Source: a virus | Virus record (IMG/VR): IMGVR_UViG_3300028393_000200 | Coordinates: 1-34,452 of that record | DNA: 34,452 bases | Strand: one strand, 5' to 3' | Shown here: positions 393 to 22,463 of the stretch, one piece after another | How the letters are laid out: every line of letters starts with the position of its first letter | Numbering within the stretch: position 1 is the first letter of the stretch | Notes under the pieces: generated by a model | Seen by the model: the letters and a program-made list of their open reading frames with translations, nothing else | Database searches by the model: none | Told to the model about the DNA's origin: nothing | Program-made: the position numbers and the translations under genes

Positions 393-577
393 AGCATCAA
401 ACCTTTAATTTCTTCTTCGGTTAAACCTAGTTTTATTAGTTTGTCTATTGCAGATTGTTTATGGTTATAGAAATCAGGAACCTCTTCTTGACTAACTATG
501 TTATTTAAAGGATGCGGATGTTCTGGTGAACATTCTATGCAGTAGCCACCAACTCCGTAAGTAATATTAATTGCCAT
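389..577 (-). CDS. Small conserved-looking protein between two fibre genes
   Basis: This 62-aa protein has an unknown role. It opens with [12 protein letters not shown], contains a Cys/His-containing segment ([12 protein letters not shown]) and ends with a Leu/Glu-rich stretch ([15 protein letters not shown]) that could be an amphipathic helix. Its start overlaps the upstream fibre stop as TAATG at 575-579, and its stop overlaps the next fibre start as ATGA. Translation of the three genes is therefore probably coupled. The position between two collagen-like fibre genes suggests a fibre-associated or chaperone-like protein, but this is inference only. Confidence 0.7.
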
Positions 578-1728
578 TATGACATCCTTAAAAGTATTGC
601 TGGGTATGCACTGTTATATGTAGTGCTATAAGTACTTCCCCAAGTAGAAGGTAATGCTCCAGTTACTCCTGTTTGATAGTAACCTGTGCTAACGTGTCCA
701 AAACCATAAGGGTCATTAGTAGTACCAACAAAAGGGTTGTAATTTCCACTGGTTATTACAGTAAGAGCATTGGCACCTTGAGCGCATGCTGCAACCCATA
801 CTTGACCAGATAATGTTTGGGAAATAGTAATTCCTTGGAGGCCAGTAGTACTCATACTAACTGTGCCATAGTCTGCTAGTAATGCACCAGGTAATCCATT
901 GTTATCTAAATAAATACCTAATCTCATTGCAGAACCAGTACCTAAAGCATAAGCAGCAATGCTATTAAAGGTAGTTGCATTTCCAACATAGAAAGGAGTA
1001 ACATATAAATTATTTTGAGTTACAGTATTATTGCCACCCGTGCCAGTATAGTTACCAAAATGCCAAGAGTTTGTAATCTTACCACGTCTAAACTGTAAAT
1101 TGTCATAGCGCAAGTTATTCCAAGCAGTTGAACCATCACCAGTTTTTGAGTAACCAGTATCAGTTTCAAAACCTGTTTCACCTGCTGCTAGTGTTGGGTT
1201 TGAACTTGTCCAGTTAGCAGCAGTATCTCTACGAAGTTGGATATTGGTATCTCTAGTTACCGTTCCACCACTTACAGATGTTAGAGATGCTTGGCTTATA
1301 TCTGCCCATAAAATTCCAGTATCTGCTGGTGCCGTGGTTTGGGAAACTATTCCTCGAGCACCAGTCATGCCTGTGGCACCTGTGTTACCTGTTGCTCCTG
1401 TCGCACCAGTTGCTCCAGTGGCACCAGTAGCACCAATTGGTCCAGTTAGGCCCGTGGCTCCTGTGGCTCCTGTCGCTCCCGTAAGGCCTGTGCTACCCGT
1501 AGCACCCGTGTTGCCTGTTGCACCAGTTACACCAGTCATACCAGTAGCCCCTGTTGCCCCTACATTGCCAGGAGTACCCTGTGGACCCTGGTCATTAGAT
1601 AGAACAACAGTAGTCTCAGGGGTTGTGACCTGCTCAACAATTACATTGATAGCCTCAGTGTCTGGGCTGATATTGACAGATATGTTATTGCTGTCAATAG
1701 GTTCAATAATTACAACTGTCTCACTCAT
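577..1728 (-). CDS. Collagen-like tail fibre with Mtd-N-like domain
   Basis: This 383-aa protein is probably a tail fibre or receptor-binding protein. Residues 1-46 form a Val/Ile/Thr-rich N-terminal head. Residues 48-126 are Gly-X-Y triplets, mostly GATG-type. Residues about 160-207 ([40 protein letters not shown]) match the N-terminal domain of phage major tropism determinant proteins, a small beta domain common in fibres. The remaining 175 residues are Gly/Ser/Thr-rich and probably form the beta-structured receptor-binding tip. The start at 1728 overlaps the stop of the upstream 113-aa protein. The DNA repeats closely resemble those of the truncated fibre gene at the left edge, so recombination between the two is possible. 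Confidence 0.88.
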
Positions 1729-4864: not shown

Positions 4865-5821
4865 TTATGAAGCGATTGATGAACCTGATTCGATTCGGTA
4901 TAGTGCTTCTTCACGGTAGCGTGCAAAGCCTAGTACGCCGTACCAACCCATTGGGCGGTGACGCATCAACTTGTCAACTACTGGTCCGATTACTACGTGT
5001 GGCTCTTCTGCAACTGCCTCTGCCAATGCTTGCTGTCCAGCAATAATTGTGCGGTAGTTACGAGCAGATGATGCACCGTCAGTAGCATTGTACAGACGTG
5101 GTGACTCTACGAAGTATGCACCTTCGTATGTACCGATTTCGCCTGCCCAGATGCGGTCCTGTGCAGAACCGTACTGGTTTGGTAGCAACCAACCTGATGA
5201 ACCAGTCTCAGCACGAAGGTCGTGTGAAACTTCTGGGTGGATACCAGCCCAGTATAGTGAGCCCTTGCGAGCGATTGTCTTACCAGCGCGTAGCTTGGCA
5301 ACTGCCTTGCGTACGTTAGCTGAAGATAGTGTAGCAGCAGCTGTTACAGTTGCTGTTGATGTTGCTGTTGAACCTGAGTAGATTACGTTTGTTCCGCTGC
5401 GCAATGCTGTCATTGCAACAGAGTCAATAGAATCTGCAAGGTTGAACGCGATAATGTTAGCAATTGCTGGGTCTACATCAGCTAGGCTGAATAGTTCCAA
5501 CGCACGTGTTACAAGAACAGAGTTACCGTACTCGTTAAGAGTAATAGTAACTGATGTTGGTGTAGACAGTGCTACTGCATCTGGGTCAGTATCTTCTGTC
5601 AGAGCAGATGTTGCTGGTGATAGGTCAACGTAACGTTGTAGAACAACTGTTGAACCTGGGATAGACTGGTTAGTAGGACGCTTATCTGCGACAGAACGAA
5701 TTAGGGGTTCTGCACGGAGGGCGAATTCTAGAAGACGGTCATACGCCTTCTGTACTAGACCAGCACTTCCAAGTGTACCTCCGAGTGAGGACGAACCTGT
5801 GGTTGTGTAGGCATTAGCCAT
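4865..5821 (-). CDS. Major capsid protein, N4-gp56 type
   Basis: This 318-aa protein is the shell subunit. The stretch LVQKAYDRLLEFALRAEPLI, followed by SVADKRPTNQSIPGSTVVLQ and RYVDLSPATSALTEDTDPDA, is characteristic of the N4-gp56 family of HK97-fold capsid proteins. Also typical are an Ala/Val/Thr-rich middle, the KLRAGKTIARKG loop and a C-terminal segment on LMRHRPMGWYGVLGFARYRE. The length is in the usual range. A strong ribosome-binding site (GGAGGTGA, 6 nt before the ATG at 5819-5821) fits high expression. The upstream neighbour is the scaffold gene, the normal order in this family. Hairpins lie before the scaffold and after this gene. Confidence 0.93.
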   Translation of the reverse strand: MANAYTTTGSSSLGGTLGSAGLVQKAYDRLLEFALRAEPLIRSVADKRPTNQSIPGSTVVLQRYVDLSPATSALTEDTDPDAVALSTPTSVTITLNEYGNSVLVTRALELFSLADVDPAIANIIAFNLADSIDSVAMTALRSGTNVIYSGSTATSTATVTAAATLSSANVRKAVAKLRAGKTIARKGSLYWAGIHPEVSHDLRAETGSSGWLLPNQYGSAQDRIWAGEIGTYEGAYFVESPRLYNATDGASSARNYRTIIAGQQALAEAVAEEPHVVIGPVVDKLMRHRPMGWYGVLGFARYREEALYRIESGSSIAS

Positions 5822-5848: not shown

Positions 5849-6328
5849 CTATGATTTTTGTGAGTAAAGAATTGAGATTAACTCTTCTGCAGATTCTGCA
5901 TTGTTGAGTCTCATCTCTAAGTTCTCGCCTCGGTCAGGTGTTGTAGCACCTTGAGTGACACTGTCCTGGTTGCGTAATGCAGCTCGGTCAATATCACTTA
6001 CTGCTGGTGCATCTTCAGACTTCGTAAGCCCGAACAAATCTCCGTTATCTTCTAGCCAATTATTAACTGACTCTTCAGATACATCGTCTATGTCCTTGAG
6101 GATTAATCGAACTGCCTTAGGATTTACACCCTTCTTTTCTAGGACTTCTTTGACTGTACGCTCACGCTGCTGCTTGGATAATCCTTCGAGCTGGTCTGTG
6201 AGTTCTTTGATACGCTTCTCATCTGCACGCTTGGCCTTACGCAACTTTTTAAGTAAATCGCTTCCGTCCATAGGTGTGTCATCGATTGTATCTTCGTCTT
6301 CGTCTTCGTCCCAGTAGTTGTTGCTCAT
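5849..6328 (-). CDS. Capsid scaffolding protein
   Basis: This 159-aa acidic protein has a very acidic head (NYWDEDEDEDTIDD) followed by a Lys/Glu/Arg-rich coiled-coil region at about residues 25-70 (LLKKLRKAKRADEKRIKELT) and a helical tail. This composition and its place immediately before the capsid gene are typical of scaffold proteins that guide prohead assembly. The ATG at 6326-6328 (MSNNYWDEDED) is preferred over one 33 bases upstream because GGGTGG precedes it at the right spacing and the extra residues look non-coding. Confidence 0.85.
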   Translation of the reverse strand: MSNNYWDEDEDEDTIDDTPMDGSDLLKKLRKAKRADEKRIKELTDQLEGLSKQQRERTVKEVLEKKGVNPKAVRLILKDIDDVSEESVNNWLEDNGDLFGLTKSEDAPAVSDIDRAALRNQDSVTQGATTPDRGENLEMRLNNAESAEELISILYSQKS

Positions 6329-6370
6329 AGCAACCACCCTTCTATTCGTTGTTAGTCGCAAGCCTCAGTA

Positions 6371-8907: not shown

Positions 8908-11900
8908 TTACCCTTCCAATTCTTTCTTGAAGACTCCATAGAAAAGCTTCTGGAAGTCTGGATACTTAGTCATTAGTCGTAGTGCTTCATTAGATAACCA
9001 TGCACGCTGTGATTCAGATGCCTTGTTAGCAAGACTCTTCATACCACTAGCAGCAATTGCCTGGTCACGTAAGTCTAGATATGCACGTGCTGCAATCAAT
9101 GCACTTGAATCAGAAAGCTTAGGGTCTTCAGATGCTAGACGAATCTGTGCAAATGAACGCTCTTTCCACTGTGTATCGAACTGTGGTTGCACACGACCTG
9201 ATAGGTTATATGACTTAGTTAGCGCATCCTTGGCTTCTTGGTACTGTGATGATGACCAACCCTCACCCACGGAACGGGTCATTAGACGGTCCATAGAGGC
9301 CGCATAAAGGACGTTGACTGCTTTGTCCATTACTTCCTTAGCAGACATCTTAGCAAAGGCTCCACGCTCCTTCTGATATTGGAACAATACCTTTGATAGT
9401 TCTCCATTAGGATAGAGATAGCCGTAGATATCTCCATACTTCTGGACAACTGATGGGTCATTCTTAATCATATTATACGTAGGAAGGTTAGTTGGTTCAT
9501 AACCTGTGGTAGACTTAATGATAGCAAAGACTTGTTCTGGTCCATATGTATCTAAGAAATCAACATATGCCTTGTTCTTATCTCCGCCAGCATTGACTTC
9601 CATATTCTTAAAGTTAGCCCATAGTGCAGTTGCTAGAACTGTGTCACCATTACTGTTCTTTGCTAGTGCTTCAGGTCGTAGAGCAAATGGGATTGGTGTT
9701 AGTGCGCCAAATAAACCACGCCACATTGTAAAGTACTGTGCTAAATTATGACCGTCTTGTGTCAGGCGAGCCTGGTCAGCTGGGTTTAATAAGTCGTACT
9801 CTCCACTAGATGCAAGGTATCCCATTGATGGGGCAAAGGCTGCAGCAAATGATGACTCAACACCAAATACTCCACCAAGTGCACGCACCCAGTTAGATGA
9901 TAGTAGTGGTCCTTCTAGAAGACCAGCATTACGCACATCAGGCGTACCGTACGGGAACGCAATCTTAAAGATATCTTCTTCCAGTTGTGTTGGAAGCAAC
10001 TTAAGAGGGTTCTTATTCATAGCATCTAATGCGGCAACTGACCAGAGTAAACCAAATCCTGCACCAGGTAGGAATGTTCCAGCACCTAGTGCGAAGTTAA
10101 ATGACTGTGGTGCAGCAGAGAATGCGTATGGTCCAGATACTCTAACATCTGAACCTCCTGGAACTATACCTTGAAGTATGTTCAATGCACTGCTTGCAAG
10201 GGGAACAAAGAACTTACGCTCTCCAGTCTGTGGGTCTCCGAAGAAGAATCCCTGATTTGGGTCATAGTAATCATTAGCATCTGTCAACTCATATAGAGCT
10301 GATGACTCAGGTGTCGATAGCCAATTACCAATCTTCCCAACCTTATAAATTTCTCCAGGGTTATCAAGTGCAATCTTACCCCATGCCTTCATGGTGTCTT
10401 CCCATGCTTGACCAAATGGTGCTATCAAACGCAGTTGATGCCATAGCAAGTTACGCTTTGAAGCATCGTAGAATAGATTCTCTACTGACTTATTAGCGTA
10501 TTTAGCAGCAAACTGGTGTGCCTCGTCTAATGTTAATGGACCTTTACCATCGGCTGCATCTAATGCTTTCCAGGCTTTATGCTCTTTACCGATATTCTTT
10601 CCAGTAACTGGATTGCGTAGTGATGATAATGACTTAGGCGCAGATGCGCGAAGTTCCTTTAGAGCCTTAGAGTTGAGGGAACCAGATAGATTATGGATTG
10701 CATCCCAGTATGACTGACGCCATTCAGGTCCCATAGTGGTTGTTTTTTCAACTCTAACAGCAAAATCAAAAAAACCTTGTGATACTTTATTGACAATGCT
10801 TGGCTTTAATATACCAGATGCTGCGACTGCAGTCTTTGGTACTGTCATAAGGATGTTATCCCAGTTGCCAGTATCAGCAAAGTTCTTCTCTAATGCACGA
10901 GTAAACTCTTTATGCAAGTCAATCTTTACAAACTTACCCTTAAGTCCTTCTTTTTGTGCTTTAAGCGTGGCTTCTGCAATCATCTTGCCAGTAGGAATCT
11001 TAACTACTTCATTGCCAATCTTAACTTCACCTTTGAGTAAAAGCTCCTTGATAAGGTTGGAACCAGACCCACGGCCTGCCATTTCCTCAATACGAGCAAG
11101 CACAGATACCTGCTCACCCTTATCATTGATTCCCTTGAATAGGAAATCCATCAAACCGTTCTCAGTTGTTGCCCAGTTCTTGAACTCGTCTGACTTAGAT
11201 GCAACAAACTTATCAAGAGTCTTGCGACCTTCACCCTTTAGGAAGTACTTTACTGTATCAAGTTCTTTACCTGGCTTGGTTGCAATAACTTTCTGTACAA
11301 ACGCTGAGTTATGCAGGATGCGAACCTGGCTCGAGAAGCCTGACCACCAGTTAGGGTGTCCAAATACTTCTTTAGTGTAGCCAAGAGACTTGACTAACTT
11401 GCTCATCTCGCCATCGCCACCCATGCCTGACATGGCATCAGACATGAAAGCAACATAGTCATTACCAAGTTCGGCTGCAAGGGCCTCAGATGCAAACTCT
11501 TCTTCTGATGAAGACATCTTAAATGATTTTCCGTACACATCATTCTTGACTGTGTCAAGTTGGTTCAATAACTGCTTCCATTTAGGACCACCAGGACGAC
11601 CAATCCACATAGCCATAGCTGAAAGTGGGTGATTTAGGAATGAGATATGACCTGTACCGAAGACACGAATCTGTTCTTCAATAATATTTCGGCTAATATA
11701 CGCAGGGCGTACAAGAACTGACTTTTTCCATAGGCTATTAATATCAGATAATGCACTCTCTGCATTAACAAGTCCTTTTCCAAACTTAATACCAGCAAAT
11801 TTTTTGGAAGTATTAATAAAATCCATCATTGCCTTGGCATCAGGTACGAATACAAAAGAGTTTAGTAATTCTGAGTCTAAATGCGCACTATGAAGATTTA

Positions 11901-13815
11901 CTTTTTCTCCACCAATTACAGCAAATGTAATATCTGCACCCTTGGCATGCTGTTCCGCCCAGTATGAGGACATATTTAAACGTTCAGTCTCGAATACTCG
12001 AGTTGCTTCTTTCCATCTTGCAAGCTCTTCGCCACTAAACTGTGGTGCATACTTCTCAAAAACTGTATTGAATAACTTTGATGTTGCGGTCATACCAGCT
12101 TTTGCTTTATCGGGTGCTGTAGCAATCTCAGTTAGAATGTTATCTAGCGTAGCCTTGTCGAGTTTCATATAACGACCGACATTGTTTACCGCTGCAAGTA
12201 GTTCATCTTTGTTGTCAAGGTGGATAAGTGTGCCACCAGATTGTGGTAGAAGTGCACCATACTTACGACCAAATGCATGAATCTCATTTGCTGCCGCAAG
12301 AATTTTTTCTTGCAATGGCATGCGAGTTAATGCTCGACCAGCTGCCCCACGTACTGCATTCATTGCACGAATGCGGTCACCCTTAGGTAGAACGACATCT
12401 AGTGAGTCAGCAAATGCATTACCAAGATAGTTTTGTTTTGCACTCTGTGATGCTTCTCTTAAGAAGCGTCCAGTCTTTGTACCAGTCTCAAGCGCACGCT
12501 GTAGTGGCTCTCCATCTGCAATGAATGGCGCTATGGTACGCAGTACTTCTTCACGAGTATTGGCTTTAGCAAGAGCAACAGCTTCATCAGCTGTAAACTT
12601 TCCCTTAGCCATCTTCTGAATTTTTAACCAGTCGTTCTCATTTGCAATGGCGTCAATAATATGTGAGCCTTTTTCGCCAGAAATAAATGTTGAGATGCCC
12701 TGATAGTCGATGCTCATGTTCTTGAATTCATCTTGAACTTTAGCTAGACGCTGAAAATTTTTAAGGTATGCCTCTGTATACTTATCCTTTTGAATGGCAG
12801 TCTTAGCACCACGGACAGCAGCAATAGATGCATCTGTCTTTTCCTTTAGAGTCTTTAGTTGCGACTCAAGGATACTGTATTCCTTTGCGGCCTTGGCTGC
12901 TTTGATTCCAGTAGTTGATTCAGATACTAACTTTGCAGCATCACGTGCTTTAGAAACTTGCGAGTATGCAAGGAATGGGTCTGTTGCTACAGATAATCCA
13001 ATTTCACCTATGGCATCAATGACGCGTGCATAACCTGACTCAGGATGTCCGCCAATTAATACATATGCTGCTGGGTCAAATATAGAATATGGACGGTAGT
13101 ATGTCTGTCCATTTTGCTTGAACGCAACTTTGGCAAGATTCATCTGCTCTTTACGAGCAGCTGCTGCTGCGCCTGTTTCTTCATTAGGAAAGAACCCAGT
13201 GCCAAGGTCAACCTTACCAGTTTGGACTTGTTGCTTAAGAACTTGAAAAGCAGTTATCTGTCCAGGTAATTCTTTTACAATCTTAGGAATTGTTTCTTTA
13301 GCAATTTCTCCTGGCTTAGCGCCACCCCATTGCCATGCATTTCCCTGGTCTTGAATCTTATTCCATTCGCTTACAAGCGAACGTGCAGGTGCTGATAGAG
13401 TTTCAACAATTGCATTACCTACAACTGCTGCTCCCTTACTCAATCCCTTGATGCCAGACCATAGAGCACCGATTGGTGTAGCATTGAATCTATCAGTTGA
13501 TAGTTTGTTGCTTGCAATTACAGAATCAGTCTTACGCTTATCCTGTGTCATCTTGTCAATTTGTGCAAGAGTTGTTAGGATAGGATTAGATGCGAGTGTA
13601 CCTTGCTTGGCAAGTCCAGTGATTAGACCAGCTGATGCTTCAGGGTTCTGAGCAAACATTCTGCGTGCTTCATATCCTTGCGGACCAGTGATAAGTGACA
13701 TGCTTTTTTGCAGGTCAGTATAGTCAGCTTGGTCTTGCGTTGTAATACGCTCTTGGACACCAGCCATAATCGGCAAGCCATTAGCATCTAGTTTTACCTT
13801 AGGTAATGATGCCAT
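8908..13815 (-). CDS. Very large internal virion / ejection protein candidate (1635 aa)
   Basis: At 1635 aa this is the largest gene in the window, about 14% of its length. It is mostly helical with long charged stretches (for example at residues 310-380, KAAKEYSILESQLKTLKEKT) and several Ala/Gly-rich hydrophobic segments. One lies near residues 1220-1260 (FNFALGAGTFLPGAGFGLLW). No catalytic motif is recognised by eye. A tape-measure protein would normally be flanked by tail-tube and tail-chaperone genes, which are absent. Its place between portal and scaffold fits the giant internal proteins ejected by short-tailed phages. The calls on type and function are inferences. Confidence 0.8.
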   Translation of the reverse strand: MASLPKVKLDANGLPIMAGVQERITTQDQADYTDLQKSMSLITGPQGYEARRMFAQNPEASAGLITGLAKQGTLASNPILTTLAQIDKMTQDKRKTDSVIASNKLSTDRFNATPIGALWSGIKGLSKGAAVVGNAIVETLSAPARSLVSEWNKIQDQGNAWQWGGAKPGEIAKETIPKIVKELPGQITAFQVLKQQVQTGKVDLGTGFFPNEETGAAAAARKEQMNLAKVAFKQNGQTYYRPYSIFDPAAYVLIGGHPESGYARVIDAIGEIGLSVATDPFLAYSQVSKARDAAKLVSESTTGIKAAKAAKEYSILESQLKTLKEKTDASIAAVRGAKTAIQKDKYTEAYLKNFQRLAKVQDEFKNMSIDYQGISTFISGEKGSHIIDAIANENDWLKIQKMAKGKFTADEAVALAKANTREEVLRTIAPFIADGEPLQRALETGTKTGRFLREASQSAKQNYLGNAFADSLDVVLPKGDRIRAMNAVRGAAGRALTRMPLQEKILAAANEIHAFGRKYGALLPQSGGTLIHLDNKDELLAAVNNVGRYMKLDKATLDNILTEIATAPDKAKAGMTATSKLFNTVFEKYAPQFSGEELARWKEATRVFETERLNMSSYWAEQHAKGADITFAVIGGEKVNLHSAHLDSELLNSFVFVPDAKAMMDFINTSKKFAGIKFGKGLVNAESALSDINSLWKKSVLVRPAYISRNIIEEQIRVFGTGHISFLNHPLSAMAMWIGRPGGPKWKQLLNQLDTVKNDVYGKSFKMSSSEEEFASEALAAELGNDYVAFMSDAMSGMGGDGEMSKLVKSLGYTKEVFGHPNWWSGFSSQVRILHNSAFVQKVIATKPGKELDTVKYFLKGEGRKTLDKFVASKSDEFKNWATTENGLMDFLFKGINDKGEQVSVLARIEEMAGRGSGSNLIKELLLKGEVKIGNEVVKIPTGKMIAEATLKAQKEGLKGKFVKIDLHKEFTRALEKNFADTGNWDNILMTVPKTAVAASGILKPSIVNKVSQGFFDFAVRVEKTTTMGPEWRQSYWDAIHNLSGSLNSKALKELRASAPKSLSSLRNPVTGKNIGKEHKAWKALDAADGKGPLTLDEAHQFAAKYANKSVENLFYDASKRNLLWHQLRLIAPFGQAWEDTMKAWGKIALDNPGEIYKVGKIGNWLSTPESSALYELTDANDYYDPNQGFFFGDPQTGERKFFVPLASSALNILQGIVPGGSDVRVSGPYAFSAAPQSFNFALGAGTFLPGAGFGLLWSVAALDAMNKNPLKLLPTQLEEDIFKIAFPYGTPDVRNAGLLEGPLLSSNWVRALGGVFGVESSFAAAFAPSMGYLASSGEYDLLNPADQARLTQDGHNLAQYFTMWRGLFGALTPIPFALRPEALAKNSNGDTVLATALWANFKNMEVNAGGDKNKAYVDFLDTYGPEQVFAIIKSTTGYEPTNLPTYNMIKNDPSVVQKYGDIYGYLYPNGELSKVLFQYQKERGAFAKMSAKEVMDKAVNVLYAASMDRLMTRSVGEGWSSSQYQEAKDALTKSYNLSGRVQPQFDTQWKERSFAQIRLASEDPKLSDSSALIAARAYLDLRDQAIAASGMKSLANKASESQRAWLSNEALRLMTKYPDFQKLFYGVFKKELEG

Positions 13816-13817
13816 AT

Positions 13818-14285
13818 TTACATACGTCCCTGGTTAGAAAGACCTTCCAAGACAAAACGCAAATCCTGATTTGTTGGGTCTTGCATGTATAGAGCCTGTA
13901 CAATTTGAATTGGATTCTCAGCCTGTGGCGTAGCCATGGCAGGAAGATTTAATATTGATGAGTCAGGTCCTGGTCCTGAGTCTGAACCATATGTTAATAC
14001 TTGGTCAGGTCGCTGTGTTGGCTCATTAAGTCCAGTAATGGCAGGAAGTGATGCCATTCCACCAGCAGATGATTGTGCAGCAACTGCTGCAGTAGGGTCA
14101 CCAGCTAGTGGTGCTGCAGTTTGGTTAGCCATGTTCTGTCCACCTTGACCATAACCTAGTCCAGGCATATATTTTGGAGCTTGTGTTCCGCTCTGACCAT
14201 TGCCACCTGTAGCAGAAATATTTGCTGGATTATTTTGAGGTGCAGTTGGGCGCATACCGCCGCTGTTCCCTGGTGTTCCTGCCAT
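13818..14285 (-). CDS. Gly/Pro/Gln-rich low-complexity virion protein
   Basis: This 155-aa protein is dominated by Gly, Pro, Ala, Asn and Gln in its first 110 residues (MAGTPGNSGGMRPTAPQNNP and PGLGYGQGGQNMANQTAAPL), so this part is probably disordered. A C-terminal 45-residue segment (ENPIQIVQALYMQDPTNQDL) appears helical. It lies between the Ntn hydrolase and the giant protein in the structural operon. A linker, minor scaffold or head-internal role is possible; no family is recognised. Confidence 0.7.
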   Translation of the reverse strand: MAGTPGNSGGMRPTAPQNNPANISATGGNGQSGTQAPKYMPGLGYGQGGQNMANQTAAPLAGDPTAAVAAQSSAGGMASLPAITGLNEPTQRPDQVLTYGSDSGPGPDSSILNLPAMATPQAENPIQIVQALYMQDPTNQDLRFVLEGLSNQGRM

Positions 14286-14293
14286 GATTCCTC

Positions 14294-14839
14294 CTACTTA
14301 ACGTATTGTTCAAAAACATGAAATGGAGCTGCTGTTCCATTATTATTAATTGCTGCAACTTCCATTGCTTCTATCGCACCGACTCCTGCGTATAATGCAC
14401 CAAGTGCATAATCTCCGCCAGAGCCGATTCCATACAAACCATCTTTGTTCATAGCAACTGAAAAGTCGCTATCAATCTCAAATATCTTTCCATTGATTCC
14501 AACAAGAAGACTTAGTTCAAACTTGCTGCTATCATCATCTGATGACTTAGTGAATTCAATGCCAGCCTCAGTCAAGGTTGTCTTCAATGATGGCGCTACT
14601 TTATTAATTACAAACTCATAAAGATTTTGTTTTGCTTTTGTTGTTACTAATGGAGGCGTCCACCCATGGAGTACCACTTGCAAAGCACGATAGTCACCAG
14701 CACCACCGATAACATAATTCCCATTTTGTATTGCCTTTACCATATTAGGATGGTTATAAACCTTACCATCTGCAACTACGCGGGAATCACTTACTATGAC
14801 ACAACCTTCTGTGCTTTCTACACCTATGATTGTTGTCAT
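14294..14839 (-). CDS. Proteasome-beta/HslV-like Ntn-hydrolase peptidase
   Basis: This 181-aa protein is close to HslV in length. It begins MTTIIGVESTEGCVIVSDSR. Removal of Met would expose Thr1, the N-terminal nucleophile of proteasome-type peptidases. Counting from that Thr, Asp17 is in place in SDSR, and Lys34 (NMVK) aligns with Lys33 of HslV after a one-residue gap. The C-terminal half has GIGSGGDYALGALYAG, which matches the GSGG-x-YA segment of HslV and the proteasome. All three catalytic residues are therefore present. It sits directly after the portal gene, where many phages place the prohead maturation protease, and no other protease is visible. AGGGGACA before the ATG is a good ribosome-binding site. 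The substrate is unknown; another possibility is action on host protein turnover. Confidence 0.85.
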   Translation of the reverse strand: MTTIIGVESTEGCVIVSDSRVVADGKVYNHPNMVKAIQNGNYVIGGAGDYRALQVVLHGWTPPLVTTKAKQNLYEFVINKVAPSLKTTLTEAGIEFTKSSDDDSSKFELSLLVGINGKIFEIDSDFSVAMNKDGLYGIGSGGDYALGALYAGVGAIEAMEVAAINNNGTAAPFHVFEQYVK

Positions 14840-14853
14840 TGTCCCCTACTAAC

Positions 14854-16653
14854 CTATGCTCTAGTTACTGTTCTTACGCTTGAGTTTGCTTTTCCACTAC
14901 CGCTTAGCGATGAAATTAATGATGTTATATCTCGTTGTGGTCCAAACGGAGCTCCTGGAGTTGGTGGCTGTGCTCCTTGGTCAGGGGAAGCGCCTCCTAC
15001 TGGAGCAGCAGCGGGAGCAGGGGACGGTTGCTCAACCGTAGATTGCGCCCCAGTAGGAGGAACTGGTTGCTGCGGAGTGAATGTGGCTTCAATTGCGTCT
15101 TCTAGAGCTTGGCCCTTTTGACGTGCCTTGATAACCGCAGCAATTTTATTTACCATCTCCGACGGGTCTTGTCCCTGTGTTGCCATCGCTGGAATAGCCT
15201 GAGCCATTGCAGTAATACCACCGAGTAATGCTGAACGCATATCCTCAATTTCAATTTTCTCAAGTTCTTGAGTTACATTGACAGTGAATGGAAGTTCTCT
15301 CATAGCCATGTCACGGCTGATTAACTTACCACCTAGTGCTTGTAGCATGAAGATAAGTCCCTGTGCTGGGTTAAGACCAGCTAGCATACCATAACGAACA
15401 TCAGCTGAGTAATCAGCCTTGATATCTTTTGATGGCTTGTATGTGATTTCGTAAGGAGAGCCTGAATCTACACCACGAATAGTCTTCTCTTCTGGGTAAA
15501 TCTTCTCATCAACTTCGAAACAAACCTGAATTACATCGCGTAATGCTGATGCAAAGATTGCTTGTGCTGACTTGACCTGTGTATCAAAGGCTCCCATAAG
15601 AGCCTGTACGCCTTGGCCAGTAACAATAGATGCATTGATGTTACCTGTACGTCCCTCAGGATAACGAGCACCAACGCGAAGTTCTTGGTTAAGAAGATTC
15701 TGTTCTGTGAATGCACCTTGTGGTAGAGTAAGTTCTACACGGCGTACACCAGCAGGGTTAGCTGTACGAATAACAGCATCTCCACCAAGTTGTAGTTCCT
15801 GCACATCTTGTGGAAGAACGATAGGAGCCTGTACTGATTTCTCAGCAGCCTCCATTGCAAGCAACGCGAAGCGGTTGCGTAGCAATTGAATACCTAGTAC
15901 GTCATCAAACTGTCCGCGTAGTTCGCCATCGATAGATGGCTTACGTGCGATTACAACCATCATCTTACCTAGCGGATTTACCGCATGAGATAGAAGAAGG
16001 TTGTCCTTTGATGGGATGTAGATTAGTGATTGGTCTTTGTCGTAGTAGCGAATCATTTCAATCTGATGATTGAGGTCTTGCTTAAAGCCAGATGGCCCTA
16101 GTAGCTGACGCTCATACTCAGGAAACTGGGAAACAAGTTCGCCCAATGTCAACATGTACCGTTTTGCAAATGCCACACAACGTCCGTAGCGGTCAAACTC
16201 TGGGTAAGCCCCAATAGGATTTTCTACGCGGATACGTGGCAGTTTTGCTTCTTCGTCGAATTCAATAATGAAAGGGACGAAACCATATGTGATGTACCAG
16301 TCTGCACCTGAGTACATGTGTACTGCTAGGTCAGAGTGTTGGAAATAGTTTGATGCGATGCGTGTGCGCTTATCGGCAAAGTTGCGAGCGCGGTCGTTGA
16401 CTGCATTTGCTGCGGAGCAGTTTACTGCAGGTAGCGGAGCCATAACTTCAGACAAGTCGCGTGCGACGATATCAATAAAGTTTGCTACTACGTTTGCATC
16501 TACGCCCTGTGGGAAGAAGTCAGGGTATACTTCAGCAATCTTTCCCTTGCGTACTGCAAGGACGTCAAGGTTGCGGGCATCACGTTCGTGGTTGCGCAGA
16601 CGTAGCGAGGCAACGCGTGCTGCTACTTGCTCCATTGATAATGCCATTGTCAT
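14854..16653 (-). CDS. Portal protein
   Basis: This protein of about 599 aa forms the dodecameric DNA entry and exit ring. It follows the terminase directly (TAG-G-ATG at 16651-16657). It has an acidic/aromatic segment (GADWYITYGFVPFIIEFDEE), a central stem-like region (FALLAMEAAEKSVQAPIVLP) and the helical segment VQALMGAFDTQVKSAQAIFA. The C-terminal 90 residues are Pro/Ala/Gly/Gln-rich, an extended tail. Size and gene order match phage portals. Start codons at 16651-16653 and 16645-16647 (ATG-ACA-ATG) are both possible; AGGA lies 5 nt before the second. A start further upstream, at 16695, would overlap the terminase by 41 bp and is less likely. Confidence 0.85.
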   Translation of the reverse strand: MTMALSMEQVAARVASLRLRNHERDARNLDVLAVRKGKIAEVYPDFFPQGVDANVVANFIDIVARDLSEVMAPLPAVNCSAANAVNDRARNFADKRTRIASNYFQHSDLAVHMYSGADWYITYGFVPFIIEFDEEAKLPRIRVENPIGAYPEFDRYGRCVAFAKRYMLTLGELVSQFPEYERQLLGPSGFKQDLNHQIEMIRYYDKDQSLIYIPSKDNLLLSHAVNPLGKMMVVIARKPSIDGELRGQFDDVLGIQLLRNRFALLAMEAAEKSVQAPIVLPQDVQELQLGGDAVIRTANPAGVRRVELTLPQGAFTEQNLLNQELRVGARYPEGRTGNINASIVTGQGVQALMGAFDTQVKSAQAIFASALRDVIQVCFEVDEKIYPEEKTIRGVDSGSPYEITYKPSKDIKADYSADVRYGMLAGLNPAQGLIFMLQALGGKLISRDMAMRELPFTVNVTQELEKIEIEDMRSALLGGITAMAQAIPAMATQGQDPSEMVNKIAAVIKARQKGQALEDAIEATFTPQQPVPPTGAQSTVEQPSPAPAAAPVGGASPDQGAQPPTPGAPFGPQRDITSLISSLSGSGKANSSVRTVTRA

Positions 16654-16654
16654 C

Positions 16655-18523
16655 CTAACCGTATTGCTCTGCCCATTGAGAGGCAAAGGCTTCATCTAAT
16701 TGTACTGAGCCACGCTGTGACTTCTGATAGCGTGTGGCCCATCTATTGTTTTGGTACTGACCAACTCGTGATGATTGTTGCATCAGTTCACGAACACGAA
16801 TGACAGCAAACCATAATGCCATCACGCAGTCTGTTGGGTTCTTTGTATCTGGTTTCCAAGTAATCAACTGTTGAGTCAGGGACTTAAGTCCTTCTGAACC
16901 TTCATTACTTGGCATCTCTATAATGTTGTTATCTTGGAAGCGACCATCACGGGTGCTTCCAAATAGGCTAGCCATAGAAGCTACACCGAAAGATACGTCC
17001 CACTTATTTTTGCCAGTGAAGTGTGAATTTAACTGGCAACCGTACGAAGCCAAGAAGTTCCGCAGGTCATCATCCATAGCATAGTACTTCTGATGTGCGT
17101 TGATTTCGACTCTGAACTCTTGAGGTTTGTATTTCTCTACCCACTCATGAATAAGAGCTGTTTCTTTTTGAGGAGTAGGGTCAACCATGTTGACACAATC
17201 TAAAACATATACCTTGCCATCGGCTCGGTTGTAAGTAACGGCCACGAATGCTGAACGTCCAGATACAGCAGGGTCAAAACCAATGACAGTGTATGTAGAC
17301 TCTATGTGTCGCGGGTGTCCTGGAGTATCCGATTTAAGCGGTCCGCGCTTTCGCATACCGTTAACACATCCTGCAACGACTGTTGGCGAGAATATAGAAT
17401 CTTCTTGGACGTCTTCTTGTTGGTAGACCATAGCCCAGACAGATGGCGCAACTTCAGAGCGTCTCGTAAAGAGAGAGGGTCCATCCCATTTCGGATAAAG
17501 TCCATCGGCATCAGGCTCGTCAATCTCATTCTCTTGCTGTGTTGTCTTAGGCCAGAGAGTTTTCCAGTTGTCTGGCTTCTCGTCAAACTCTAACACAGCG
17601 GGCTGGGAAAAGTAAGTAAAGGGTGACTTGCCGCCAGTCCACTGGTCAGGGTCACGAATCATTTTATATAGGTCAATTGGTGATACGCGTGTGCCTACAA
17701 CCAAAAGCTTACCGTGTCTACCTAGACGAGTGATAACTTCCTTCTGCAGCCATTCAATCTGCTTTTCCCACTCATGGGCGTTGGAACCCATCACTACGTC
17801 ATCAAGGATAATCAGGTCGGCACGTGCTCCGTAAATCTGAGACCCAAAGCCTAGGGCTTGAACGGTTGGGTCTTTCTCTCCAGAGTCTCGACCTGTTCCC
17901 AGGTAAATCATATCAGCTGACCATTGAGTCGCATCTGCCTTATAACCACCACTAGGGCCGAAGGCCACCTGTAGTTTTGTATAGGCTGGGTGTGAAAGTC
18001 TTGTCTTGATAGCACCAAGGAACTTGCGTGCCATACCCTGGGTCTTAGAGACTACAATGACTCGGGCATTAGGGTTTGTTACAATTTTGTAGACGACATA
18101 GTTAGTCGTGATGACCGTAGACTTGGCATGCTCAGGTGGCACGTTAATCAGTACACGGTTGGCAGCCCCAGGTTCGTAGGTCATAGAGGGGTGAATCCAT
18201 CTAGGTTCTTTGCCGTCAATCAAATCTACCCAGTCGAGGTGGTGTTCAAAAAGCTTAGTGTCTAGGAACTGCTCAGAGAAGTCAGGAAATGATATGTCCT
18301 TGATGTCCTTCAGGTCGGCCTTAACGCCCTTACCTTCTAGGCGGGCCTTCTCAGCCCGTTCTTTAAACTCAGGTTCATTCATTGTCCATTGGCGGTAAGT
18401 AACCTCATTACGGCCTACAGCGTTCATAGCGGCCGTTATAGTCGAACCCTCGGCCAGGGTCAGGAGTACCCGCTCTTGGGCTTCCTTCTTGGAGATATCT
18501 ACCTTACCAGGCTTGCGTCCCAT
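16655..18523 (-). CDS. terL: Terminase large subunit with N-terminal HTH region
   Basis: This 622-aa protein is the ATP-driven DNA packaging motor and nuclease. Walker A is PPEHAKST (129-136), Walker B LIILDD (237-242), and the coupling motif LLVVGTR is at about 273-279. The nuclease domain opens with IGFDPAVSG (first Asp at about 417), followed by EFRVEINAHQKYY and a late PTDCVMALWFA. Residues 15-65 (RVLLTLAEGSTITAAMNAVG, VTYRQWTMNEPEFKERAEKA) form a helix-turn-helix typical of small terminase subunits, so DNA recognition may be fused to the motor. No separate small terminase is seen. The gene starts the structural block beside the 955-bp control region. Confidence 0.95.
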   Translation of the reverse strand: MGRKPGKVDISKKEAQERVLLTLAEGSTITAAMNAVGRNEVTYRQWTMNEPEFKERAEKARLEGKGVKADLKDIKDISFPDFSEQFLDTKLFEHHLDWVDLIDGKEPRWIHPSMTYEPGAANRVLINVPPEHAKSTVITTNYVVYKIVTNPNARVIVVSKTQGMARKFLGAIKTRLSHPAYTKLQVAFGPSGGYKADATQWSADMIYLGTGRDSGEKDPTVQALGFGSQIYGARADLIILDDVVMGSNAHEWEKQIEWLQKEVITRLGRHGKLLVVGTRVSPIDLYKMIRDPDQWTGGKSPFTYFSQPAVLEFDEKPDNWKTLWPKTTQQENEIDEPDADGLYPKWDGPSLFTRRSEVAPSVWAMVYQQEDVQEDSIFSPTVVAGCVNGMRKRGPLKSDTPGHPRHIESTYTVIGFDPAVSGRSAFVAVTYNRADGKVYVLDCVNMVDPTPQKETALIHEWVEKYKPQEFRVEINAHQKYYAMDDDLRNFLASYGCQLNSHFTGKNKWDVSFGVASMASLFGSTRDGRFQDNNIIEMPSNEGSEGLKSLTQQLITWKPDTKNPTDCVMALWFAVIRVRELMQQSSRVGQYQNNRWATRYQKSQRGSVQLDEAFASQWAEQYG

Positions 18524-19029: not shown

Positions 19030-19058
19030 TTGACAAGCGAGAGAGAGTGAGTTACACT
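19030..19058 (+). promoter_or_regulatory. Promoter P1
   Basis: TTGACA (19030-19035), 17-bp spacer, TACACT (19053-19058), facing the early plus-strand genes. Operator 1 lies 10 bp upstream and operator 2 is about 22 bp past the expected start. Confidence 0.7.
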
Positions 19059-19079
19059 ACGCGACTTCCAAAATAGGGG

Positions 19080-19095
19080 TGTGACGTACATCACA
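19080..19095. promoter_or_regulatory. CRP/GlxR-type operator 2
   Basis: TGTGACGTACATCACA: a perfect palindrome half-pair with central TA, so it also fits the actinobacterial GlxR form TGTGANNTANNTCACA. It lies downstream of P1 and 7 bp before operator 3, so it could repress P1 or cooperate with operator 3. Confidence 0.78.
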
Positions 19096-19102
19096 ATTAG
19101 AG

Positions 19103-19118
19103 TGTGACCGACATCACA
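19103..19118. promoter_or_regulatory. CRP/GlxR-type operator 3
   Basis: TGTGACCGACATCACA, with the same ACATCACA right half as the other two. It ends 10 bp before the -35 box of promoter P2. Confidence 0.75.
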
Positions 19119-19128
19119 TGGTTTCGAC

Positions 19129-19157
19129 TTGACACGCCTAGTCTTATGGGGTATTGT
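19129..19157 (+). promoter_or_regulatory. Promoter P2
   Basis: TTGACA (19129-19134), 17-bp spacer, TATTGT (19152-19157). A hairpin GAGAG/CTCTC (19176-19190) lies just downstream of the expected start. Confidence 0.68.
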
Positions 19158-19226
19158 TCTCCTTGTCATCAGATAGAGAGTGTCCCTCTCAACAGATAAC
19201 ACGACACGCCGAGAGTCTTACAGGAC

Positions 19227-19255
19227 TTGACAAGTGTCCGAGAGTCTGATAAAGT
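19227..19255 (+). promoter_or_regulatory. Promoter P3
   Basis: TTGACA (19227-19232), 17-bp spacer, TAAAGT (19250-19255). The expected transcript soon meets a hairpin TAGGGA/TCCCTA (19280-19294, 3-nt loop). Confidence 0.7.
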
Positions 19256-19296
19256 ACTCTCAACAAGTTAGAACCCCGATAGGGAGCGTCCCTAAC

Positions 19297-19325
19297 TTGA
19301 CAAGTCAATAGAGTTTAGATAGTCT
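19297..19325 (+). promoter_or_regulatory. Promoter P4
   Basis: TTGACA (19297-19302), 17-bp spacer, TAGTCT (19320-19325). The -10 box overlaps the left arm of the 11-bp inverted repeat at 19313-19379, so a transcript from P4 would lack that arm while one from P1-P3 would contain it. Confidence 0.6.
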
Positions 19326-19379
19326 CCACTAGTTACTAGTAGCAGCAGGTCGCCTGTGGTAACAGGACACTATCTAAAC
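19313..19379 (+). other. Branched inverted-repeat element (possible structured leader RNA)
   Basis: GTTTAGATAGT (19313-19323) pairs perfectly over 11 bp with ACTATCTAAAC (19369-19379). Inside lie two smaller stems: ACTAG/CTAGT (19328-19340, 3-nt loop) and CCTGT/ACAGG (19353-19366, 4-nt loop). The result is a closed three-way-like fold of 67 nt. It does not have tRNA arm lengths. It may be an RNA control element in transcripts from P1-P3, or a DNA operator. Confidence 0.5.
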
Positions 19380-19384
19380 CTAAC

Positions 19385-19413
19385 TTGACAAGTCCGTAGC
19401 GATAGGCTAAACT
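19385..19413 (+). promoter_or_regulatory. Promoter P5
   Basis: TTGACA (19385-19390), 17-bp spacer, TAAACT (19408-19413). It is the closest promoter to the first early gene (start 19479). Its -10 lies inside repeat element A (19397-19428). Confidence 0.7.
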
Positions 19414-20312: not shown

Positions 20313-20345
20313 ACAACTACAAGATGACGAGAGGGGGTGAGATAC

Positions 20346-21635
20346 ATGGAAAATGATGACAACACTAGAGAGTGTACGACTTGCTCTAGTACGATAGATG
20401 ACGGTGACGAGATAGTCATGAACGAGCACGCTTACTGCACAGATTGTGTGTTTGTATGTGAGGATTGTAGTGACGTCAGAGATAGCGAACAGCGCATAAG
20501 CGTTGGCGTTATGAGTTACTGTGAGGATTGTGCTAGTTACTGTCAGCGTTGCGAGGACGGCATGGATAATGACTCTAGTCGTACCGTAGATAGAAACGAG
20601 TCATGGTGTGAGTATTGTTACGAGAATTACAGTTACTATTGCGACTCGTGCAACGAGTCGTACTCAGGTGACTGTACCTATGTACAGGATACGCCATACT
20701 GTGAGCGTTGCTACGAGGACGAGTGTTACTGGTGCGAGGATTGCGACGAGTCATACCCTAATGACAATCGTTGCGACTGTAACGACGGTGAGGGCAGAAA
20801 TGGTTGCTGTCGTGGTAGCCGTACAAGCGGTACTATCCACGACTACTCATGCAAGCCTAGCCCTATCTTCAAGGGTAGTAACAAGCATGGTATGTATCTT
20901 GGCTTCGAGTTAGAGACAGAGACTCAAGCGGTAGAGGGTGCTGCTCGGTTTGCTTCCGCAAACCTAGATGGTGTAGCATACCTCAAGCATGATGGTAGTA
21001 TCGGTAGTGGGTTCGAGATTGTAACTCACCCACATACTCACACAGAATACAGAGAGAACAGTAAGTTACTATGGAATACCATAGATAAACTACGCACAGA
21101 CTATGGTGCTAGGTCATGGGATACAGATACCTGTGGCTTACACATACACCTAAGCCGTAGCGGTTTCAGTAGTGGCGCACACCTTCACAGGTTCATAGCC
21201 CTAGTGTACCACAATGCACCACAGATGATGAAGTTTGCTGGTCGTAAGACTAGGTTCGCTAGGTTCAATGATGTGTACACCTTTGATGAGTACGACAGAC
21301 CTGTGTTCTCAATCAAGCACAAGACAGGTAACCCAAGCAGGGTTAGTAGCGAACGGTATTCAGCGGTGAACACACAGAATACTAACACAATAGAATTGCG
21401 CTTCTTTAGAGGCACAATGAATACAAGCGGTGTGCTAAGTGCCCTAGATTTAGCACAGGCTATGGTAGAATACACTAGGGAACTACGACTAGATGATGTC
21501 AAACTTGGCATGCTATCTTGGGACTGGTTCGCTGACTATGTAGCGTCCAACAATGGACTCTACCCCGACCTATACTCTAGGCTGGACAAGATAGAGGCAA
21601 CAGACATACACAACAAGATACAAGCAGACGCATAG
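20346..21635 (+). CDS. Amidoligase-family enzyme with N-terminal zinc ribbons
   Basis: This 429-aa protein probably joins a carboxylate to an amine with ATP, like other COOH-NH2 amidoligases of the glutamine-synthetase-like fold. The catalytic half shows YLGFELETE (184-192), KHDGSIGSGFEIVTHP (214-229) and CGLHIHLS (263-270). These are the acidic and His signatures of the Amidoligase_2 family. Residues 10-155 contain about 24 cysteines in CxxC pairs, a string of zinc ribbons that may dock substrate or nucleic acid. The ATG at 20346 is chosen because GAGGGGGTGA precedes it. The next gene encodes a class II glutamine amidotransferase, the usual partner of phage amidoligases, which would supply ammonia. 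The product is unknown. Confidence 0.88.
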   Translation: MENDDNTRECTTCSSTIDDGDEIVMNEHAYCTDCVFVCEDCSDVRDSEQRISVGVMSYCEDCASYCQRCEDGMDNDSSRTVDRNESWCEYCYENYSYYCDSCNESYSGDCTYVQDTPYCERCYEDECYWCEDCDESYPNDNRCDCNDGEGRNGCCRGSRTSGTIHDYSCKPSPIFKGSNKHGMYLGFELETETQAVEGAARFASANLDGVAYLKHDGSIGSGFEIVTHPHTHTEYRENSKLLWNTIDKLRTDYGARSWDTDTCGLHIHLSRSGFSSGAHLHRFIALVYHNAPQMMKFAGRKTRFARFNDVYTFDEYDRPVFSIKHKTGNPSRVSSERYSAVNTQNTNTIELRFFRGTMNTSGVLSALDLAQAMVEYTRELRLDDVKLGMLSWDWFADYVASNNGLYPDLYSRLDKIEATDIHNKIQADA

Positions 21636-21647
21636 GGAGATGATACA

Positions 21648-22463
21648 ATGTGCTTACTAATTGTGTGCGAGCCAAACTCCACACCTAATAAGGCAGACTT
21701 ACACGCTGGTGCGTGTAGTAATCCACACGGATTTGGATTTGCTATACACGCTGGCGATAAGATAATCTCTGAGCGTAGTATGTCTGCCAAGAAATCTATT
21801 GCACGCTTCTTGGAATTGCGCAAGCAATACCCTGAAGGCTACGCCATGTGGCACGCACGATACGCCACACATGGTGTTAAGAACGAGCAGAACTGTCACC
21901 CATTCGTGGTTGGTGGTGATGAGCGTACTTACCTAGCACACAACGGTGTGCTTGACATAAGTATCGGCAAGTCTGACAAGCGTAGTGATACGCGTGTCTT
22001 CGCTGAGGACACACTACCTAGAATTGGTGGCGTGTCTGCACTTGATGATGATAATGTATGGATAATGGCTGAGACTTGGGCTAAGGGTAGCAAGATTGCT
22101 ATCCTAACATGTGACCCAGCAGCCAAGCACCCTATGTATCTACTCAATGAGTCGTCTGGTTCATGGGACAACGACGGTATCTGGTGGAGTAATCAGAGCC
22201 ACAAGCGTAGTACCTACGCGATACCAACAAAGACCCAAGCCAAGGACTATGATGACAAACTGTGGGACTACGCAGTAGAGGTAGACTTAGAACTCTGCCC
22301 CTTCTGCGAGTCAGCAACAGATGTAACAGACAACCCATACTATTGCAACCTTTGCCAGTCATGCTATGACTGTGGTATAATGATAGATGATTGTCTGTGC
22401 TATACACCCAACAAAAACTGGCAAAGCATACGAAGCCTTGCCCATTTACAATACGACTACTAA
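21648..22463 (+). CDS. Class II glutamine amidotransferase-like protein
   Basis: This 271-aa protein would release ammonia from glutamine using an N-terminal Cys. It begins MCLLIVCEPN, so Cys2 becomes Cys1 after Met removal. The family signatures are NPHGFGFAI, MWHARYATHG followed by NCHPF, and YLAHNGVL. The C-terminal 60 residues hold a cysteine-rich zinc ribbon (LCPFCES, CNLCQSCYDCG, DDCLC). It lies 12 bp after the amidoligase, with GGGAG before its ATG, so the two form an operon and probably a complex. Small ammonia transfer from this protein to the amidoligase is the inferred function. Confidence 0.88.
   Translation: MCLLIVCEPNSTPNKADLHAGACSNPHGFGFAIHAGDKIISERSMSAKKSIARFLELRKQYPEGYAMWHARYATHGVKNEQNCHPFVVGGDERTYLAHNGVLDISIGKSDKRSDTRVFAEDTLPRIGGVSALDDDNVWIMAETWAKGSKIAILTCDPAAKHPMYLLNESSGSWDNDGIWWSNQSHKRSTYAIPTKTQAKDYDDKLWDYAVEVDLELCPFCESATDVTDNPYYCNLCQSCYDCGIMIDDCLCYTPNKNWQSIRSLAHLQYDY

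Follow-up and report, generated by a model that had tools for sequence, protein, structure and literature searches.

The question raised by this locus is what a proteasome-like protein does for a phage when its gene stands in the late gene row, directly behind the gene of the portal protein. The window, that is, the whole stretch of 34,452 nucleotides analysed here (positions 1 to 34,452 of IMG/VR virus record IMGVR_UViG_3300028393_000200), carries on its minus strand a late row in the order terminase, portal, protease, g155, 1635-aa protein, two further proteins, scaffold and capsid. The row begins with the terminase large subunit TerL (16655..18523, phrog_38, E=9.7e-64) and the portal protein (14854..16695, phrog_104, E=3.7e-30). 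The protease gene (14294..14839, 181 aa, ATG start) starts 14 nt after the portal gene, and the strong Shine-Dalgarno sequence of g155 (TAGGAGG) overlaps its end, showing that it is read within the late row. Downstream follow g155 (13818..14285, phrog_8200, function unknown), the gene of the 1635-aa late protein (8908..13815), a separate scaffold gene (5849..6361, phrog_7813, weak match to scaffold families) and the gene of the major capsid protein (4865..5821, phrog_1357, E=1.6e-78), all on the minus strand. The first-pass annotation, which had been made from the sequence, placed the protease gene between portal and internal virion genes. The portal side of this description stood, while the "internal virion" label had been given to the 1635-aa gene, whose best family match has E=0.013, on its size and position only.

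A WhiB gene is present in the window and its nearest cultured relatives are phages E7 and F5 of Ca. Planktophila (PMC10202952), which together place it among the freshwater actinophages. Four TTGACA-type promoter-like sites, approximately 98-160 nt apart, lie between the divergent gene arms at 19030-19413 (plus strand), and one of them falls inside a 21-nt repeat (19291, 19379). A tail-fibre-like protein with collagen-like Gly-X-Y repeats is encoded at 577-1728 (minus strand). At 20337-22463 (plus strand), a zinc-finger-rich protein with an Amidoligase_2 domain (E=1.7e-6) is encoded beside a protein with Cys2 that resembles class II glutamine amidotransferases (GATase_6, E=7.4e-8). The latter is a second Ntn-type hydrolase of the same phage, and the two may form an amide-modifying pair.

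Fold and active site of the protein

The protein is a proteasome-like (Ntn) protein, with homology far beyond chance. In profile searches it was matched over residues 1-177 by PHROG 1040, "peptidase HslV family" (E=3.5e-27). The Pfam Proteasome family (PF00227) gave E=3.6e-4 and 20.7 bits for the single protein, just under the gathering cut-off of 22.4, and reached E<=0.01 in 49 of the 58 aligned homologues, the best value being 5.2e-13. The AlphaFold monomer model (pLDDT 92.8, pTM 0.89) was built from an alignment that took in bacterial homologues. A PDB profile search with a phage-only alignment also finds the beta-proteobacterial proteasome homologue BPH (2.3e-10) and HslV (5e-10), and the BPH/HslV match is thus independent of the bacterial sequences. 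The proposed structural comparison with HslV and the 20S beta subunit was run; both are among the best Foldseek matches of the model in the PDB, which were BPH (2.6e-10, TM 0.77) first, then HslV, Anbu and 20S beta.

The alpha-beta-beta-alpha sandwich of the proteasome-like superfamily, with its core strands and helices H1-H4, was found in the model and by Foldseek. Both helix pairs of H1-H4 are predicted, H2 being modelled at residues 73-91, and no H5 helix or extra domain is seen in the AlphaFold model. A loop of some 17 residues (92-108, 14516..14566, minus strand), acidic and negatively charged overall, joins helix H2 to the next strand at the position of the BPH pore loop; HslV has no long loop there. 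With the HslV equivalog TIGR03692 the protein scored 28.4 bits, well short of the cut-off of 157.75, and the bacterial 20S beta model TIGR03690 showed weak or no similarity to the single proteins, the HslV models scoring higher. In the tree, the slot protein, as the protein encoded between portal and the g155-type gene is called here, did not group with bacterial BPH-type proteins.

The catalytic residues are those of an N-terminal threonine hydrolase. Threonine directly follows the initiator methionine (codon 14834..14836 behind the ATG at 14839-14837), and in the slot genes that were read first the frame is closed by a stop 2-6 codons before the start; from these two observations it follows that there is no propeptide. 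Of the 58 homologues, 45 have Thr and 13 have Ser at residue 2, counting Met, thus one of the two in 58/58, and every viral homologue has Thr. D18 (14786..14788) and K35 (14735..14737), likewise counting Met, are invariant in all 58 and correspond to Asp17 of HslV and, with a one-residue insertion, to its Lys33. The oxyanion glycine (Gly47) is kept in 55 of the 58 homologues and in the window protein, so that the Thr1/Ser1, Asp17, Lys33 triad and the Gly47 oxyanion position that define the superfamily are all found, and GSGGDYA occupies residues 139-145. The first-pass annotation's reading of a proteasome/HslV-type N-terminal threonine hydrolase keeping Thr1, Asp17, a Lys at the position of Lys33 and GSGGxYA was accordingly confirmed in family, fold and residues. 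Median pairwise dN/dS was 0.14 for the protease and 0.12 for the portal, indicating purifying selection, although these values are only rough, many pairs being close to saturation at synonymous sites. The protein is thus a small and probably active relative of the cutting subunit of the proteasome.

The slot behind the portal gene

Relatives of the protein are encoded in at least 570 IMG/VR stretches, and the slot between portal and the g155-type gene is occupied in hundreds of IMG/VR contigs as well as in the cultured Planktophila phages E7 and F5. The portal gene lies just upstream in all viral slot loci fetched except L090, whose sequence begins only 32 bases before the gene. Inversely, a portal-centred survey took in 65 close portal relatives that had 600 nt or more of sequence downstream, and it found the protease within those 600 nt in 61. 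The remaining four carry a small acidic ORF of 79-86 aa directly behind the portal and leave no room for a remnant. This ORF was considered as a substitute for the protease and rejected, since in other phages the 86-aa type occurs together with the protease, directly behind it; a small acidic ORF separates the protease gene from g155 in some relatives. In locus L143 an HNH-type endonuclease-like ORF, recognised by eye, was seen between the portal and the protease gene (L143:2204-2500), and it could drive exchange at the slot.

Identity to the window's counterpart spans 27-100% for the slot proteins and 66-100% for the portals of these loci, most of the portals falling at 80-89%; slot proteins drop to 28% where portals remain above 80%. 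The two identities were uncorrelated (r=-0.08, a merely descriptive value because the loci were picked by similarity to the slot protein or the portal). In the tree the slot proteins form three supported clades among other phage homologues. Behind g155, the close relatives encode at least three families of 1500-1870-aa proteins with no mutual similarity detectable by BLAST, and these mix freely with the types of slot protein; families 6 and 7 of the large protein are also found where the protease is missing. Processing of the large late protein by the protease was rejected, as the types of the two are not paired.

Such wide divergence and exchange within one fixed slot resemble an arms race, and the protein might act in counter-defence or host takeover, either by degrading or blocking a host protein or by entering or mimicking the beta ring of the host proteasome. 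The hosts are actinobacteria, judging from the WhiB gene and from E7 and F5, which infect Planktophila (PMC10202952). The literature searched gave no information on the proteasome content of Nanopelagicales. Against this explanation, no host protein, proteasome or defence system was linked to the protease in this analysis, bacterial 20S beta (TIGR03690) is matched weakly or not at all, HslV models scoring higher, and a late position is odd for early takeover; it is regarded as rather unlikely. In a further reading, also given little weight, freshwater actinophages would reserve a dedicated late-gene slot for self-compartmentalising proteases that can replace one another and that clear away a host or defence protein, the variants matching host strains. 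If true, a phage proteasome-like enzyme would for the first time have a defined role.

In other phages the neighbourhood is different. The homologues of Pumpernickel, DSL-LC01, D'Alembert, J2-1, 166E36-1 and VpV262 have metabolic, DNA or small unknown genes around them, outside the head modules, and are found close to ThyX and tRNAs, WhiB, DNA methylases, PhoH and ribonucleotide reductase, or middle genes. Their position bears on whether the protein belongs to the virion. Ejected proteins are often encoded between the portal and large late proteins, and the window gene has just this place, which would suit a cargo packaged in the head, ejected with the DNA and acting at entry. Since no export or virion signal was seen and the homologues elsewhere lie in non-structural regions, such a cargo role is considered very improbable.

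A near-identical head without the gene

The first-pass annotation had noted that no conventional prohead protease is visible and had considered the enzyme as a capsid maturation protease or as a modifier of the actinobacterial proteasome. The first observation held, as no known prohead protease was detected among the window ORFs scanned. No support was found for an action on the host proteasome, and capsid maturation was abandoned as leading reading after the portal-centred survey and the inspection of one operon lacking the gene. In this relative (G001, locus L222) the whole row from TerL to capsid is present and colinear with the window, with identities of 84% for TerL, 87% for portal, 45% for g155, 36% for the large protein, 78% for scaffold and 92% for capsid. 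No protease homologue was found in its 30.5 kb record of an approximately 39 kb genome, about a quarter of which is missing and may hold a copy. Near-identical portal, scaffold and capsid proteins are thus encoded without the protease, and a role in head maturation is not supported. With the limit given by the missing quarter, this row is the strongest evidence against such a role.

During assembly, a prohead or virion maturation protease would cut the large late protein or one of the head proteins scaffold, portal and capsid. It would be needed for the head that it accompanies, and its substrate would carry a delta domain or a fused scaffold. In the window, the capsid protein has no N-terminal delta domain and the scaffold is encoded by a separate gene, and three further portal loci besides G001 lack the protease. 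The late operon position directly behind the portal in nearly all relatives and the lack of any other protease among the window ORFs scanned favour maturation, whereas the independent variation of slot type and large late protein (families 6 and 7 doing without the protease) and the location of relatives in other phages outside head modules add to the evidence against it. Taken together, these observations make maturation quite unlikely. The capsid protein itself varies in length among the relatives, being about 400 aa in E7/F5 (loci L046 and L047) and in G005/G006 compared to 318 aa in the window, the additional residues being inserted near position 258 of the shorter form.

It is therefore probable that the gene encodes an optional protease acting in the infected cell and not a capsid-maturing enzyme. 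The product would be a catalytically competent, propeptide-free threonine peptidase of group I on the BPH/HslV side, made late from the row shared with terminase, portal and capsid, and the gene would be an exchangeable accessory outside head maturation. Working like BPH, its subunits might form a small compartment that needs no AAA+ unfoldase of its own and, at a late stage of infection, cleave peptides or unfolded substrates derived from the host or the phage. A self-contained late peptidase is favoured because the acidic loop is BPH-like and no unfoldase was detected among the window ORFs scanned, where no HslU-type ATPase was found and the sole AAA ORF is a DnaB-like helicase. This BPH-like, unfoldase-independent accessory peptidase of late infection, without part in head maturation, is given about an even chance of being correct. 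For a gene that is only accessory, the adjacency to the portal in 61/65 loci is unexpected, and it counts against this reading unless the benefit of the position lies in late expression.

A proteasome fold can also serve chemistry other than general proteolysis, for instance that of a specific amidase or of a connectase-like ligase or transpeptidase acting on one partner. The proteasome-like family includes the ligase connectase (PMC8665760), purifying selection goes together with wide divergence between slot variants, and the Amidoligase_2 and class II glutaminase pair of the window indicates that amide chemistry occurs in this phage. The model, however, has no connectase-type S3/S4 helical insertion, and its nearest structures are BPH and HslV; this explanation is deemed unlikely.

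Comparison with known systems

BPH (PDB 5ovs/5ovt/5ovu) is the best match by both structure and sequence profile, and it shares with the window protein the acidic loop and the lack of a known unfoldase. The long acidic pore loop of BPH goes with the apparent absence of an unfoldase partner (PMC8665760). BPH differs in being cellular, in having only 19-24% identity to the window protein, and in forming a double-ring complex according to published work, where the window protein is represented by a monomer model. HslV (ClpQ) is likewise a compact group I subunit with T1, D17, K33 and GSGG; it differs in having no acidic loop and in its partner HslU, of which none was found among the window ORFs scanned in this possibly incomplete record.

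Phage proteins of this kind are already known, being present in PHROGs and UniProt/BFVD and described in PMC8665760; the first-pass annotation's word "unusual" is thus to be qualified, and the new aspect is the context of the gene. PHROG 1040 members, e.g. VpV262 ORF47 and WJZ48484 of Actinomycetia phage DSL-LC01, have the same family, fold and Thr1/Asp/Lys. In the other phages inspected they lie outside the head gene cluster, unlike that of the window. Fuchs, Alva and Lupas (2021) described the group I phage families PPH, AAH and CPH, which similarly are phage-borne proteasome-like proteins without propeptide (PMC8665760). Identity with PPH was ruled out by length and helix H2, PPH having about 140 aa and no H2 and the window protein 181 aa with H2; AAH and CPH were set beside the window protein by the published text alone, which reports no actinobacteria-specific phage with AAH (PMC8665760). 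The same study catalogued these phage proteins without function and found "no genomic contexts suggestive of a specific function" (PMC8665760); no function for the phage proteasome-like family was found in the literature searched.

The closest cultured systems are the Planktophila phages LanE43AprE7 and LanE43AprF5 (OX376640, OX376641; PMC10202952), whose public records are without annotation. They have the same gene order and a slot protein 57-60% identical to that of the window, and were cultured with their host. One lineage offers a context that is stable, natural cases with and without the gene on almost the same head, and two phages that are in culture together with their host, and the role of a phage proteasome-like protein therefore becomes directly testable.
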